From Deltaproteobacteria bacterium (GTDB lineage Bacteria > Desulfobacterota > Desulfomonilia > Desulfomonilales > Desulfomonilaceae): DNA of 36,815 nucleotides. The DNA lies in assembly GCA_021777225.1 (NCBI GenBank), contig JAJYDQ010000040.1, forward strand, positions 1-36,815. The letters run 5' to 3'. This document shows positions 2,770 through 25,356 of this stretch, one piece after another. The notes below the pieces were generated by a model. The model searched no databases and was not told where the DNA came from. It worked only from the letters and a program-made list of their open reading frames with translations. A program made the position numbers and the translations under genes. The first letter of the stretch is position 1; every line of letters begins with the position of its first letter.

Positions 2770-3540
2770 ATGAAAATTGCGGTGTCAGGTAAAGGAGGAG
2801 TAGGCAAGACCACTTTAAGCAGCCTACTGGCCCGGTACTGGGCAAGAAAGGGTTTTCGGGTCTTGGCCGTTGACGCTGATCCGGACGCAAACCTTGGGTC
2901 CGCTTTAGGGATTGATACGTCAGGTATAACCCCTATCGCCAAAATGGAAGATCTTATTTACGAACGTACAGAGAGCAAAAAGGGCACCGTCGGGGGATTT
3001 TTTAAAATGAATCCAAAGGTGGATGATTTGCCAGAAGCTCTTGGGCGCGAAAAAGATGGCGTAAGATTGCTCATAATGGGTACCGTAAAAAAGGGCGGCG
3101 GCGGCTGCATTTGTCCGGAAAGCGTTCTGCTAAAAGCGCTGATCAGCCACTTGGTACTTTACGAAAAAGATCTTGTTATCATGGATATGGAAGCCGGCAT
3201 TGAACATTTGGGCCGCGGTACCGCACAGGGGGTAGATAGTCTTCTAATAGTAGTGGAACCTGGTCAAAGGAGCATCGAAACAGCGTCAAAAGTTCGGGAT
3301 CTCACTCGGGATATCGGGCTGACGAGAATCGCAGCGGTCGGTAGTAAGGTACGCAACAAGGAACAGGAAGAATTTCTGAAGGAAAACCTGGGAGAAATTC
3401 CTTTAATTGGTATTATCCCATTCTCCGAGGAAATTGCTCAAGCGGATCTCGAAAACCGCCCACCTTCGCTCGACGACCCGGCGCTATTCCCGGCAATTGA
3501 AAAAATAGCTTCCACTATTGAAAGTAATTCGGGAAAATAG
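2770..3540 (+). CDS. cooC: CooC-type nickel-insertion ATPase for carbon monoxide dehydrogenase
   Basis: This is a MinD/SIMIBI-class P-loop ATPase of 256 residues, the normal CooC length. The deviant Walker A motif GKGGVGKT spans residues 7-14, and VDADPDANL (34-42) is the following switch. The diagnostic CooC feature is a Cys-X-Cys pair, here C113 and C115 in GGGCICPE, which in characterised CooC binds Ni(II) or Zn(II) across the dimer. MDMEAGIEHLGRGT carries the second switch. Such ATPases load nickel into the C-cluster of carbon monoxide dehydrogenase. The ATG at 2770 has GAGG five to six bases upstream. No CODH gene is in the window. A second, clearly different CooC lies at 22450-23220. 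The ATPase family is certain; the exact client enzyme is inferred. Confidence 0.88.
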   Translation: MKIAVSGKGGVGKTTLSSLLARYWARKGFRVLAVDADPDANLGSALGIDTSGITPIAKMEDLIYERTESKKGTVGGFFKMNPKVDDLPEALGREKDGVRLLIMGTVKKGGGGCICPESVLLKALISHLVLYEKDLVIMDMEAGIEHLGRGTAQGVDSLLIVVEPGQRSIETASKVRDLTRDIGLTRIAAVGSKVRNKEQEEFLKENLGEIPLIGIIPFSEEIAQADLENRPPSLDDPALFPAIEKIASTIESNSGK

Positions 3541-3741: not shown

Positions 3742-4623
3742 ATGTCAGCCAAGATTATCAGCGGCAATGAAGTTTCTAAACAACTAAAGGACGAGATGAA
3801 GGAAGAAGTGGTCAAACTTAAAGCTCAGGGTTTGGAACCATGTCTGTCCGTTATACTGGTAGGTGAAGACCCGGCTTCAAAGGTGTACGTGCTTAATAAG
3901 AAAAAGGCATGCGAGTATATTGGGATCAAGTCCCTCGAAACCAGACTCCCTGCGACGACAACAACAGAAGAATTGCTAAAAGTCATAGAAGGCTACAACA
4001 ATGACAAGACCGTTCATGGTATTCTTTGTCAGTTGCCGTTGCCCAAACACATACCTGAAGCCAAAATCTTACGATCAATACTACCGGAAAAGGACGTCGA
4101 TTGTTTTCACCCATTTAACGTGGGGCTTATCAGTATTGGCGAAGTTAGGTTTCTTCCCTGTACGCCCGCCGGTGTCATTGAACTCATAAAAAGAGGCGGA
4201 TTTGAAACCGCAGGGAAAGATGTCGTCATCCTCGGCAGAAGCAATATTGTAGGAAGGCCTCTTTCCAACATGCTCGACCAGAGAGACATGAACGCTACTG
4301 TCACCATGTGTCACACAAAAACCAAAAACCTCAAGGAGCGTTGCGCAGCTGCTGACATAGTTATCGGCGCTATTGGCCGCCCTGAATACGTGAAAGCGGA
4401 TATGGTAAGAGAAGGCGCAGTTGTAATTGACGTCGGCATTAACAGAGTAGACGCCCCAGGGACCGAAAAGGGTTTCAAATTGGTCGGAGACGTTGCGTTT
4501 GACGAAGTTAAGGAAAAAGCGGCCGCAATCACCCCAGTTCCTGGCGGAGTCGGGCCTATGACCATAGCAATGCTAATGAAGAATACCCTGACAGCGGCGA
4601 AAGAGGCTTTTTTCAAAAAATAG
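3742..4623 (+). CDS. folD: bifunctional methylenetetrahydrofolate dehydrogenase / methenyltetrahydrofolate cyclohydrolase
   Basis: FolD interconverts 5,10-methylene-, 5,10-methenyl- and 10-formyl-tetrahydrofolate in the cytoplasm. In anaerobes it also serves the methyl branch of the Wood-Ljungdahl pathway. The 293-residue length is typical. The catalytic YxxxK is Y49...K53 (SKVYVLNKK); the substrate motif GILCQLPLPKHI follows near 94-105, then KDVDCFHPFNVG. The Rossmann segment VVILGRSNIVGRP precedes the cofactor region, and the C-terminal signature PGGVGPMTIAML is intact. The ATG has a strong AGGAGG about eight bases upstream (near 3731). It follows the DUF3786 and CooC genes on the same strand after a structured leader, which fits a C1-metabolism group. 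Confidence 0.96.
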   Translation: MSAKIISGNEVSKQLKDEMKEEVVKLKAQGLEPCLSVILVGEDPASKVYVLNKKKACEYIGIKSLETRLPATTTTEELLKVIEGYNNDKTVHGILCQLPLPKHIPEAKILRSILPEKDVDCFHPFNVGLISIGEVRFLPCTPAGVIELIKRGGFETAGKDVVILGRSNIVGRPLSNMLDQRDMNATVTMCHTKTKNLKERCAAADIVIGAIGRPEYVKADMVREGAVVIDVGINRVDAPGTEKGFKLVGDVAFDEVKEKAAAITPVPGGVGPMTIAMLMKNTLTAAKEAFFKK

Positions 4624-22449: not shown

Positions 22450-23220
22450 TCAACTTAGCACGTCTATATCCTGAAGCATCTTTCGGACGGCCTGATACGC
22501 TATGGATCCAGAAGGAATATCTACCAGCGGCTTTCCTTCAAGGTCGAGAGAGACCAATTCTTCATCATACGGGATCAGAGCCAAAGGCGTCGAAGGCAGG
22601 GCATCTATTTCCTCACGGGTAGTTTTAGGTAAATCAGCAAGCGTGCCCTGAACACGGCTCAGGACTATGTGCTGGTTGTGTATCCTGCCTTCCATTTCGT
22701 CAATCAACTGGTAAATCCGCCCGATCGTTCTCACACTTCTTGGGGACGGGTCAGATATGATGAACAGATGATCAACTTCTTCCTCCGTACGCCTTGATAG
22801 ATGTTCCATGCCTGCTTCGTTGTCGATTATGACGAACTTGTAGTTCGTGGTTAATCTGGATATGACATCACGAAGTATGTTGTTGGCCATACAGTAGCAA
22901 CCCGGTCCCTCCGGCCTACCCATGGAGAGGAAATCCAAATCTTTTGTTTCTTCAAGGTTAGCCTGGATCTGGTAGTCCATAAAACGGTCCCTGGTCATGC
23001 CTCCAGGAATGTCCTCGCCCAGCTTTCTGGCGTCTTCTCTTATGCATCCTACGCTTTTGGGTTCCCGTATTCCTAGGACTTCATGAAGGTTTGAGTTTGA
23101 ATCCGCATCAATGGCTAATAAAGGTCTCTGACCAGTATCTATAAGGTTTTTGATTATCAGTGATGTAATGGACGTTTTCCCTACGCCACCCTTCCCTGCA
23201 ACCGCAAGGGTTATTCCCAT
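22450..23220 (-). CDS. cooC: second CooC/AcsF-like maturation ATPase
   Basis: This 256-residue P-loop ATPase has the deviant Walker A AGKGGVGKTS (residues 8-17), IDADSNSNLHEVLG (37-50) and the Cys-X-Cys pair C108 and C110 in GRPEGPGCYC. The GPGCYC context is the form I associate with CooC/AcsF proteins that serve CODH/acetyl-CoA synthase, while the copy at 2770-3540 has GGGCIC. IIDNEAGMEHLSRRT is the second switch. The ATG has AAGGA seven bases upstream. It lies 29 bases after the short MetE-like gene and is the last gene of an acyP-chaN-like-metE-like-cooC run, which suggests that the MetE-like protein works with corrinoid or CODH/ACS chemistry. Confidence 0.9.
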   Translation of the reverse strand: MGITLAVAGKGGVGKTSITSLIIKNLIDTGQRPLLAIDADSNSNLHEVLGIREPKSVGCIREDARKLGEDIPGGMTRDRFMDYQIQANLEETKDLDFLSMGRPEGPGCYCMANNILRDVISRLTTNYKFVIIDNEAGMEHLSRRTEEEVDHLFIISDPSPRSVRTIGRIYQLIDEMEGRIHNQHIVLSRVQGTLADLPKTTREEIDALPSTPLALIPYDEELVSLDLEGKPLVDIPSGSIAYQAVRKMLQDIDVLS

Positions 23221-23249
23221 GTTAATTCCTTTCCAAGAAAATTATTGTG

Positions 23250-24332
23250 CTAGTCGTTAAAAATGTTTTCAAATTTCGTTTCGTCAATTTGAGATAGTAT
23301 CGTATAGACTTTTTCGGTTTCTTCGATAGTTAGGCTCGAACAACCGCATGCTGGGGAAATTATCATATGCCTAAGCAATAGTTCCCTGGTGATACCCTTT
23401 TCCTCCAACACGGATAAGCCTCTGCGAAGCCTCCAGAATGTTAAATCCGCAGATTCCTGATTTATTCTGGAATCATTAGGGACTGCGCCCCACGCCAGAA
23501 CACCGCCTCGAGCCAGGAAATTCGACAGTTGTTCAGGGTAGATCGCCAAAGACTCCAGATAATCCACAGCGTCAAAATTGATAATATCCACTGCTGTCTG
23601 CATCAGCAATGACCAGTCCGTGTTTCCGCAGCAATGGACCCCGGTGATCGCTCCCGCGGAAGACGCCATTGAGAAAACGTCGTTGAGAGATTCAATAACA
23701 TCTGAACTCGAAACTCCAAGGAACGCGGATGAACCATAAGCGCTTAAACTTGGTTCATCAAAAAACAATATTACATTTTCAGCGAAAGGCTTCAATTTTT
23801 CTACCAACCACATCGCCTTCAGCCCCATACCCTTTATCGCCACGTCCTTGAATATAGGATGATAAAATATGGGCTTGCCATGCTCATCGGTTACGGACAA
23901 AGCAAAGCTTAGAGGCCCTGTAACTTGCGCTTTAAGGAACGGGCGCTTAAAATGGTCCCCGATCAGCCGTTCGATAAACAACTTGATCCCAAGGCCATAG
24001 TCCTCACCTATTTTAAAAGCTTCGCTCCGTGACCCCTCAATAATTTCAAGATATTCTTCGTAAAATTTCTCCACTGCGCCAGAAGATTGATCGGATGTGT
24101 CAAAATAGTATTTGAGATTTTCCAAATCAACTTCGAAACCGGGAAGTTTTTCAGAATATTGAATCCACATCTGTTCGCGAGGATCGCGTCTCGACAGTTG
24201 AGGCAAATGAGGGGCTGTTTTCAGAGAATTAAGTATTAGGTTAACGGCAGCCTCCGCGTCGGTATGCGGCATACTGCCAATAGCTGTCGTAAGAAGTTTG
24301 GGAAGCGCCTTAGTCGTACTATTTCCTGCCAT
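23250..24332 (-). CDS. short MetE-like (UROD/methionine synthase II-fold) protein
   Basis: This 360-residue protein corresponds to only the C-terminal catalytic barrel of cobalamin-independent methionine synthase. It starts with LLTTAIGSMPHTDAEAA, the usual barrel opening. Candidate zinc ligands are H233 and C235 (GVHCCGN) and C329 (SPACGCSS), matching the HxC...C pattern of MetE. The N-terminal folate-binding domain is absent. Stand-alone cores of this type can take a methyl group from a corrinoid protein rather than methyl-folate. ATG 24332 has GGAG five bases upstream and lies 10 bases after the stop of the ChaN-like gene; a GTG at 24362 would overlap that gene. The next gene is cooC. Methionine synthesis is inferred; another zinc-dependent methyl transfer is possible. 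Confidence 0.78.
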   Translation of the reverse strand: MAGNSTTKALPKLLTTAIGSMPHTDAEAAVNLILNSLKTAPHLPQLSRRDPREQMWIQYSEKLPGFEVDLENLKYYFDTSDQSSGAVEKFYEEYLEIIEGSRSEAFKIGEDYGLGIKLFIERLIGDHFKRPFLKAQVTGPLSFALSVTDEHGKPIFYHPIFKDVAIKGMGLKAMWLVEKLKPFAENVILFFDEPSLSAYGSSAFLGVSSSDVIESLNDVFSMASSAGAITGVHCCGNTDWSLLMQTAVDIINFDAVDYLESLAIYPEQLSNFLARGGVLAWGAVPNDSRINQESADLTFWRLRRGLSVLEEKGITRELLLRHMIISPACGCSSLTIEETEKVYTILSQIDETKFENIFND

Positions 24333-24342
24333 TTTAGCTCCA

Positions 24343-25356
24343 TTAATTGCCATTTCCGACACTTTTCAGGTTGTTTTCCGCAACATTCCAGGAATCGGCG
24401 CTTTCATCCCCATCATTGGACTTTATGGGAATCACGCTCAAATAGTCGGCAATAGGTTTGTTTATGAATCTAACATCTTCGTGAGATATCTCTATATCGA
24501 TAGCCTGTTGTCTCTCCGCTTCAGAAAGCTCCATCTCTCCACTTTCAGAGGGCAAAATTATTCGGGAAGTTAGATCAATGCGCCTTTTCACTCTCTCAGG
24601 GATCCCAAACCCATAGTTCAGGTGTCCATTCCCGGCTATTACCAAAAGCAGCTTATCCTTTGTATCCGGTCTTTCTAGATATTTCGTTATGTTAGAGGCC
24701 ATTACGGCATCCCTCAAAGCCTGCGCAAAGATCACCCGATCCAAAGTTTTTCCCTGAAATGCTCGATGAACTTTGAGTCTCATTGACAGGAGTCTAGCAT
24801 AAAGTGGATTTATAGGTTCCACGTCAGGAGGCGCCAAAGATTTTTCCTCTTTAGATAAAGATTCCAATCCTCCCCGTGCCGCTTTGCGAACAATACCATT
24901 CGAAACATTCAAACAAACCACGGGAATTTCAAGATCTCGAGCCATGGTTAGAACAGACGAATAATCTATCAGATTCGTCCAACTGTCTTTGCCCAGGTTC
25001 TTCACCAAAACTGATACCGATTCAGTGGAAGACAACCAGCGATCAACGATTGGCTGCTGTTCCGATGTAAACATTTCCATAGCAAGTGATATTTTGGGAT
25101 TGCGCTGGACAAGTCCTCTTAAGATTTTGACCTGAAGTTCGTGGTGACGCGCTATGGTGTGGAATTCACCAACGTAGACTATCCGAACCGCGGACATGTC
25201 GTCGAGCGCAGTTTCGATGGAAACCGGTTCGCCAAGGAGCAAATCAACTATTATCGAGGGGCAAGACATAGATGCGCTACTCGCATTTGGTCCATATAAG
25301 CAAAAAGTCACGGTCCAAATGAGAAGAAAAATTATATTCAGGGTCCTATTAAACAC
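24343..25356 (-). CDS. ChaN-like (haem-binding uptake/TIKI fold) exported protein
   Basis: The protein carries the ChaN/TIKI signature YVGEFHTIARHHELQ, with the first GE/H pair at about residues 63-66, and the C-terminal AGNGHL. ChaN-like proteins bind haem in pathogens and are related to TIKI-type metalloproteases; here the ligand is unknown. A signal peptide (FNRTLNIIFLLIWTVTFCLY, about 2-21, cleavage after ASSA) puts it in the periplasm. I chose GTG 25356, which overlaps the acylphosphatase stop by eight bases and starts directly at the signal peptide; a TTG at 25398 would give a 50-base overlap and a worse leader. It is coupled to acyP upstream and the MetE-like gene downstream. Confidence 0.78.
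   Translation of the reverse strand: MFNRTLNIIFLLIWTVTFCLYGPNASSASMSCPSIIVDLLLGEPVSIETALDDMSAVRIVYVGEFHTIARHHELQVKILRGLVQRNPKISLAMEMFTSEQQPIVDRWLSSTESVSVLVKNLGKDSWTNLIDYSSVLTMARDLEIPVVCLNVSNGIVRKAARGGLESLSKEEKSLAPPDVEPINPLYARLLSMRLKVHRAFQGKTLDRVIFAQALRDAVMASNITKYLERPDTKDKLLLVIAGNGHLNYGFGIPERVKRRIDLTSRIILPSESGEMELSEAERQQAIDIEISHEDVRFINKPIADYLSVIPIKSNDGDESADSWNVAENNLKSVGNGN

Follow-up and report, generated by a model that had tools for sequence, protein, structure and literature searches.

Probable MesB-type methionine synthase encoded beside a CooC-type ATPase in a Wood-Ljungdahl family of Desulfobacterota

The stretch of DNA analysed here (the window, 36,815 nucleotides) comes from a genome of the Desulfomonilaceae, denoted below as the source family. 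It carries two adjacent genes, mesB and cooC, whose products appear to serve one pathway. With a probability of about 85%, mesB encodes a MesB-type methionine synthase fed most likely by the methylated corrinoid iron-sulfur protein (CFeSP), and the ATPase encoded by cooC is a maturase of CODH/ACS. The scheme that we infer covers the MesB reaction, the source of its methyl group, and the target of the ATPase. In it, His233, Cys235, Asp254, and Cys329 would hold a zinc ion that binds and activates the thiol of homocysteine. The thiol would then accept a methyl group from a methylated corrinoid protein, yielding methionine. The donor would most likely be the CFeSP AcsCD, with AcsE methylating it from methyl-THF or AcsB from acetyl-CoA. 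The neighbouring CooC/AcsF-type ATPase would mature the nickel sites of CODH/ACS, and the two genes would be adjacent because both serve the same pathway, rather than because the ATPase acts on MesB.

The enzyme family, its missing folate domain, and its link to CFeSP are already published. Family and link have been in print since 2020-2021 (PMC7005905, PMC7857596), the name MesB and the connection to CFeSP being due to Price et al. (PMC7857596). Novelty is therefore lower than suggested by an earlier note on this DNA, which did not name the family.

The mesB gene and its predicted zinc site

The gene mesB (positions 23250 to 24332, minus strand) starts with ATG and encodes a core methionine synthase of 360 aa. 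Its naming is based on the open reading frame, a fold resembling the catalytic half of MetE, and scores of 212-225 bits to MesB stand-ins from Dehalococcoidia (see below). An in-frame GTG at 24362 represents an alternative start that would add 10 residues (370 aa); residues are numbered here from the ATG. The predicted zinc ligands are His233 (codon at 23634-23636), Cys235 (23628-23630), Asp254 (23571-23573), and Cys329 (23346-23348), all read on the minus strand. His233 aligns by spacing with His215 of the Dehalococcoides mccartyi enzyme, both cysteines are assigned from alignment and conservation, and Asp254 takes a position held by Glu in MetE and by Asp in MesB. H233-x-C235, D254, and C329 are invariant among 26 aligned relatives, in agreement with the HxC...C zinc site predicted in the earlier note, and the protein probably binds zinc. 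Ser20 and Asp192 occupy the homocysteine-binding positions of MetE (positions from PMC7857596).

Pfam and NCBIfam scans gave no usable match for the protein itself; three of the 26 relatives match Meth_synt_2 weakly and one matches PF01208. A xylanase returned by the PDB sequence search was dismissed as a chance match, and the profile search returned nothing but repeat-protein matches, which were regarded as artefacts. As all these searches were uninformative, a comparison of structures was needed.

Fold and relationship to MetE

An AlphaFold2 model built with the 26 relatives reached a pLDDT of 92.7. Its best structural fit is the C-terminal half of MetE from T. maritima (1xdj, residues 386-733; Z 24.4, 3.4 Å, 298 aligned residues), and MetE C-terminal halves as a group fit at 3.3-3.4 Å and Z of about 24. 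The stand-alone MesD structure 3rpd follows at Z 24.1. Both the 360-aa length and the structure comparison show that the folate-binding half, i.e. the second half of a full-length two-barrel MetE, is missing, so that the earlier description of the protein as a MetE catalytic barrel without its folate half holds. Sequence alone indicates weak homology to MetE: when profiles were compared with those of four MetE catalytic halves, the probability was 54% (E 1.3e-4). The paired segments are KAQVTGP and KGMLTGP, the two DEP motifs, the two HxC motifs, and the final Cys of each. The window protein and the catalytic half of 1xdj are thus alike in fold, zinc ligands, and DEP motif, whereas MetE possesses a folate-binding N-terminal half and a Glu zinc ligand in place of Asp, and identity is about 17%. 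MesD (Shewanella) is likewise a stand-alone MetE core, but it belongs to aerobes and works with MesX (PMC7857596), while the window protein is found in anaerobe-type genomes with CODH/ACS.

The model is also matched well, at Z 19-20, by URO-D proteins and by 4ay7, a methyltransferase of M. mazei. Together with the PF01208 match of one relative, this could suggest a URO-D/MtaA-type methyltransferase that exchanges methyl groups between a corrinoid protein and some thiol that is not homocysteine. Such an identity is given the barest chance, since the fit to MetE C-terminal halves is about 4 Z units higher, three relatives match Meth_synt_2, Ser20 and Asp192 stand at homocysteine-binding positions, and the gene complements MetH and MetE across genomes (see below). 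A grouping with URO-D proteins devoid of zinc ligands, which the earlier note had named as the outcome that would speak against its proposal, is not what the comparison returned: the ligands are conserved and MetE is the better fit.

Assignment to the MesB family

The characterized reference of this family is the core-MetE of D. mccartyi (cbdbA481), a protein of 343 aa with the zinc ligands His215, Cys217, Asp236, and Cys312 and with His122, part of an HxxG motif, near the site (Deobald et al., PMC7005905). Criteria for a MesB include methylation of homocysteine from methylcobalamin and not from methyl-THF, and a phmmer score of 130 bits or more against D. mccartyi MesB, the published family limit. 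For the window protein, comparison with four Dehalococcoidia orthologues used as stand-ins gave 212-225 bits, whereas the limit of 130 refers to D. mccartyi MesB itself. These stand-ins were picked by the published D. mccartyi residue numbers and by a neighbouring metK gene. Many Dehalococcoidia homologues came up in a scan of named genomes, and several of them carry the zinc residues exactly at the D. mccartyi positions; one (L168) additionally possesses His122, within KGHVTGP. A number of these homologues are followed by metK some 4 kb downstream, in agreement with the D. mccartyi operon as described.

Counted from the His, the remaining zinc ligands of the window protein are spaced at +2, +21, and +96, versus +2, +21, and +97 in D. 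mccartyi MesB. In the tree, the window protein falls within the main MesB radiation beside members from acs operons (KSB1, Actinomycetota), at a weakly supported fork. A placement of the characterized MesB with the divergent paralogues of type 2 or type 3 was given up once residue positions and the tree had been compared. At the level of sequence, the window protein is orthologous to MesB by way of the Dehalococcoidia stand-ins, not of the D. mccartyi sequence itself. As in that family, it consists of the catalytic MetE half only, displays H-C-D(or E)-C ligands at nearly the same spacing, and occurs with AcsC/AcsD in the genome, generally with CODH/ACS and mostly without MetE or MetH. It differs from D. 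mccartyi MesB in its pairing with a CooC-type ATPase and in the HxxG motif, where the His is replaced by Gln (KAQVTGP), as in many Dehalococcoidia relatives.

Divergent paralogues were also observed. The source genome carries a type-2 copy (L031:6443-7468; G000:C68:12457-13437) that keeps the zinc ligands and has Val in place of the homocysteine-binding Ser of MetE and MesB. Many genomes carry type 2, which forms a separate clade on a long branch and may have a different substrate. A third type (L036, L047, L049, L246), again a separate clade, retains the zinc ligands, with DEP changed to LPE or QPE and the Ser replaced. A second MesB-like copy in another source-family genome (G007, L048:262-1371) has Glu at the second zinc ligand (HCEEN) and may be altered or inactive.

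The CooC-type ATPase and the gene pair

The gene cooC (22450 to 23220, minus strand) lies 29 bases downstream of mesB on the same strand, and the two are presumably co-transcribed. It encodes a CooC/AcsF-type P-loop ATPase of 256 aa, probably a nickel maturase of CODH/ACS, as judged from its closest solved structure and from relatives beside acsC/acsD. That structure is CooC of Carboxydothermus hydrogenoformans (3kje; E 1.6e-18 over residues 4-232). The GPGCYC motif noticed earlier (residues 105-110, with Cys108-x-Cys110; 22891 to 22908, minus strand) is aligned with the CYC of 3kje, so that the CooC-type partner assumed at the outset is confirmed. The deviant P-loop GKGGVGKT, the CxC motif, a length of about 255 aa, and overall CooC similarity are shared with CooC/AcsF, and the relatives of the ATPase likewise adjoin acs genes; the difference is that in the source family it is paired with mesB.

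Both genes are adjacent, with order and strand kept, in all 16 source-family genomes that have them on one contig, and the outer neighbours of the pair vary among genera. Upstream of mesB, on the same strand, a ChaN-type gene (PF04187) ends with its stop at 24343, a position kept only in the closest genera. As the pair is kept in these 16 genomes and relatives of mesB are present in 91 of the 148 searched (see below), neither the gene nor the pairing is a product of chance.

Outside the source family, 40 of 68 listed genomes carry the closest ATPase relatives no more than 12 kb from acsC/acsD, often at about 1 kb. Within it, the ATPase gene is never near the acs matches listed and stands beside mesB instead (16 genomes); the acs clusters of the source genome and of a second member (G010) contain no CooC of the tested types. 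A sister family shows the order fhs-cooC-mesB-cooC-cooS-acsB-acsC, two Clostridia show mesB-cooC-cooS-acsB or mesB-cooC-cooS, and two Elusimicrobia show mesB-cooC with a different CooC subfamily. In several phyla, mesB is located inside acs operons.

From this acs gene context, the paired ATPase probably inserts nickel into CODH/ACS. On a plain reading, mesB and cooC are both Wood-Ljungdahl genes that here lie outside the main cluster. As 16 genomes keep the pair strictly together, amid changing neighbours and away from the CODH/ACS cluster, there is room for a role of the ATPase on the methionine-synthase side, e.g. loading the MesB metal site or assisting in transfer or reactivation of the corrinoid. 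This is judged very unlikely; if true, an ATP-driven metal helper would be dedicated to methionine synthesis. Price et al. (PMC7857596) reported that mesB clusters with Wood-Ljungdahl genes. The word CooC is absent from the main text of that paper, which hence makes no mention there of a stable mesB-cooC pair. The lasting pair in the source family is a small addition to the published work on MesB.

A second CooC-type ATPase with a GGGGCIC motif is encoded in the window at 2770-3540 (plus strand), between a DUF3786 gene (2058-2702) and folD (3742-4623). DUF3786 directly precedes mesB in acs operons elsewhere (L045, L060, L109, L205) and, given this position, may be an overlooked Wood-Ljungdahl gene.

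Gene content of the source family

The source genome (4.04 Mb, 97.6% complete) has no match to PF01717 (MetE) and none to PF02574 (MetH/BHMT). CooS, AcsB, AcsC, and AcsE are encoded by consecutive genes of contig C67, AcsD is encoded where contig C40 ends, and two MetF-type genes are present. The earlier note would have been contradicted by complete MetE or MetH in a genome without CODH/ACS; what was found is a full CODH/ACS set with neither MetE nor MetH. None of the 18 source-family genomes has a MetH/BHMT match or a PF01717 match above the cut-off. CdhD-type genes occur in all 18 and MesB in 17; the one genome without MesB is 82% complete. In this family mesB is not adjacent to acs genes. 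One member (G010; L191 from 7676, C1 about 287675-290975) combines a CooS and an AcsD-type (CdhD) match in a single frame of about 1100 aa that resembles an AcsD-CooS fusion, and CdhD matches fall in frames of 1100-1150 aa in other source-family genomes.

Distribution across 148 genomes

The earlier note had proposed a survey of co-occurrence with cooC and acs genes. It was carried out on the genomes of 148 relatives, whose counts are not phylogenetically independent. MesB-like genes, counted with the divergent paralogue types included (G044 and G121 have a type-2 copy only), occur in 91 of the 148 genomes and track CODH/ACS: 88 genomes have a MesB-like gene and a strong CdhD, three the MesB-like gene only, 11 CdhD only, and 46 neither (Fisher p 5e-24). 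ATPase relatives, for their part, stand beside acsC/acsD in many genomes.

The distribution is complementary to that of the known methionine synthases. A MesB-like gene is present in 72 of the 74 genomes lacking both MetH and MetE, and 55 of the 57 without MesB carry MetH or MetE (p 2.5e-21, 148 genomes). This lends independent genomic support to the proposal in the literature that many Wood-Ljungdahl anaerobes depend on MesB as their only methionine synthase, and it adds a bacterial family with MesB and without MetE or MetH. As the window protein has no Pfam or NCBIfam family name, genomes of this kind may be mistaken for those of methionine auxotrophs.

Two functions had been offered in the earlier note, a corrinoid-fed methionine synthase or an aid in CODH/ACS assembly. 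The absence of MetE and MetH beside a CODH/ACS set favours the first; the complementarity speaks against the second. An assembly or repair factor partnered by the CooC-type ATPase would account for the direct pairing in all 16 testable source-family genomes and for the acs-operon location elsewhere. However, of the 11 genomes that have CODH/ACS and lack MesB, 9 carry MetH or MetE, so that the gene behaves as a methionine synthase and not as a part of CODH/ACS. Residues of the zinc and homocysteine sites are kept, and the CooC partner by itself explains the link to assembly. A CODH/ACS accessory role of the MetE-like protein was dropped, as CODH/ACS genomes with MetH usually do without it, and it is regarded as highly improbable.

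A MesB-type methionine synthase thus remains the preferred reading, and the alternative that bears on it concerns the donor. About 20 B12-binding matches were found in the source genome, several of them within frames of 216-259 aa, which matches the length of small corrinoid proteins from methyltransferase systems, so that CFeSP need not be the sole donor. The usual donor could then be another methylated corrinoid protein, from a methylamine, methoxyl, or similar methyltransferase system, as proposed for some paralogues by Price et al. (PMC7857596). This is considered unlikely, given CODH/ACS in 88 of the 91 genomes with a MesB-like gene and mesB inside acs operons of several phyla. One genome points the other way: G102 (1.5 Mb, 98% complete) has a MesB-like gene (L236; C2:144866-145849) and, among the matches listed, no CdhD, MetH, or MetE, and it is a candidate for MesB with another methyl donor.
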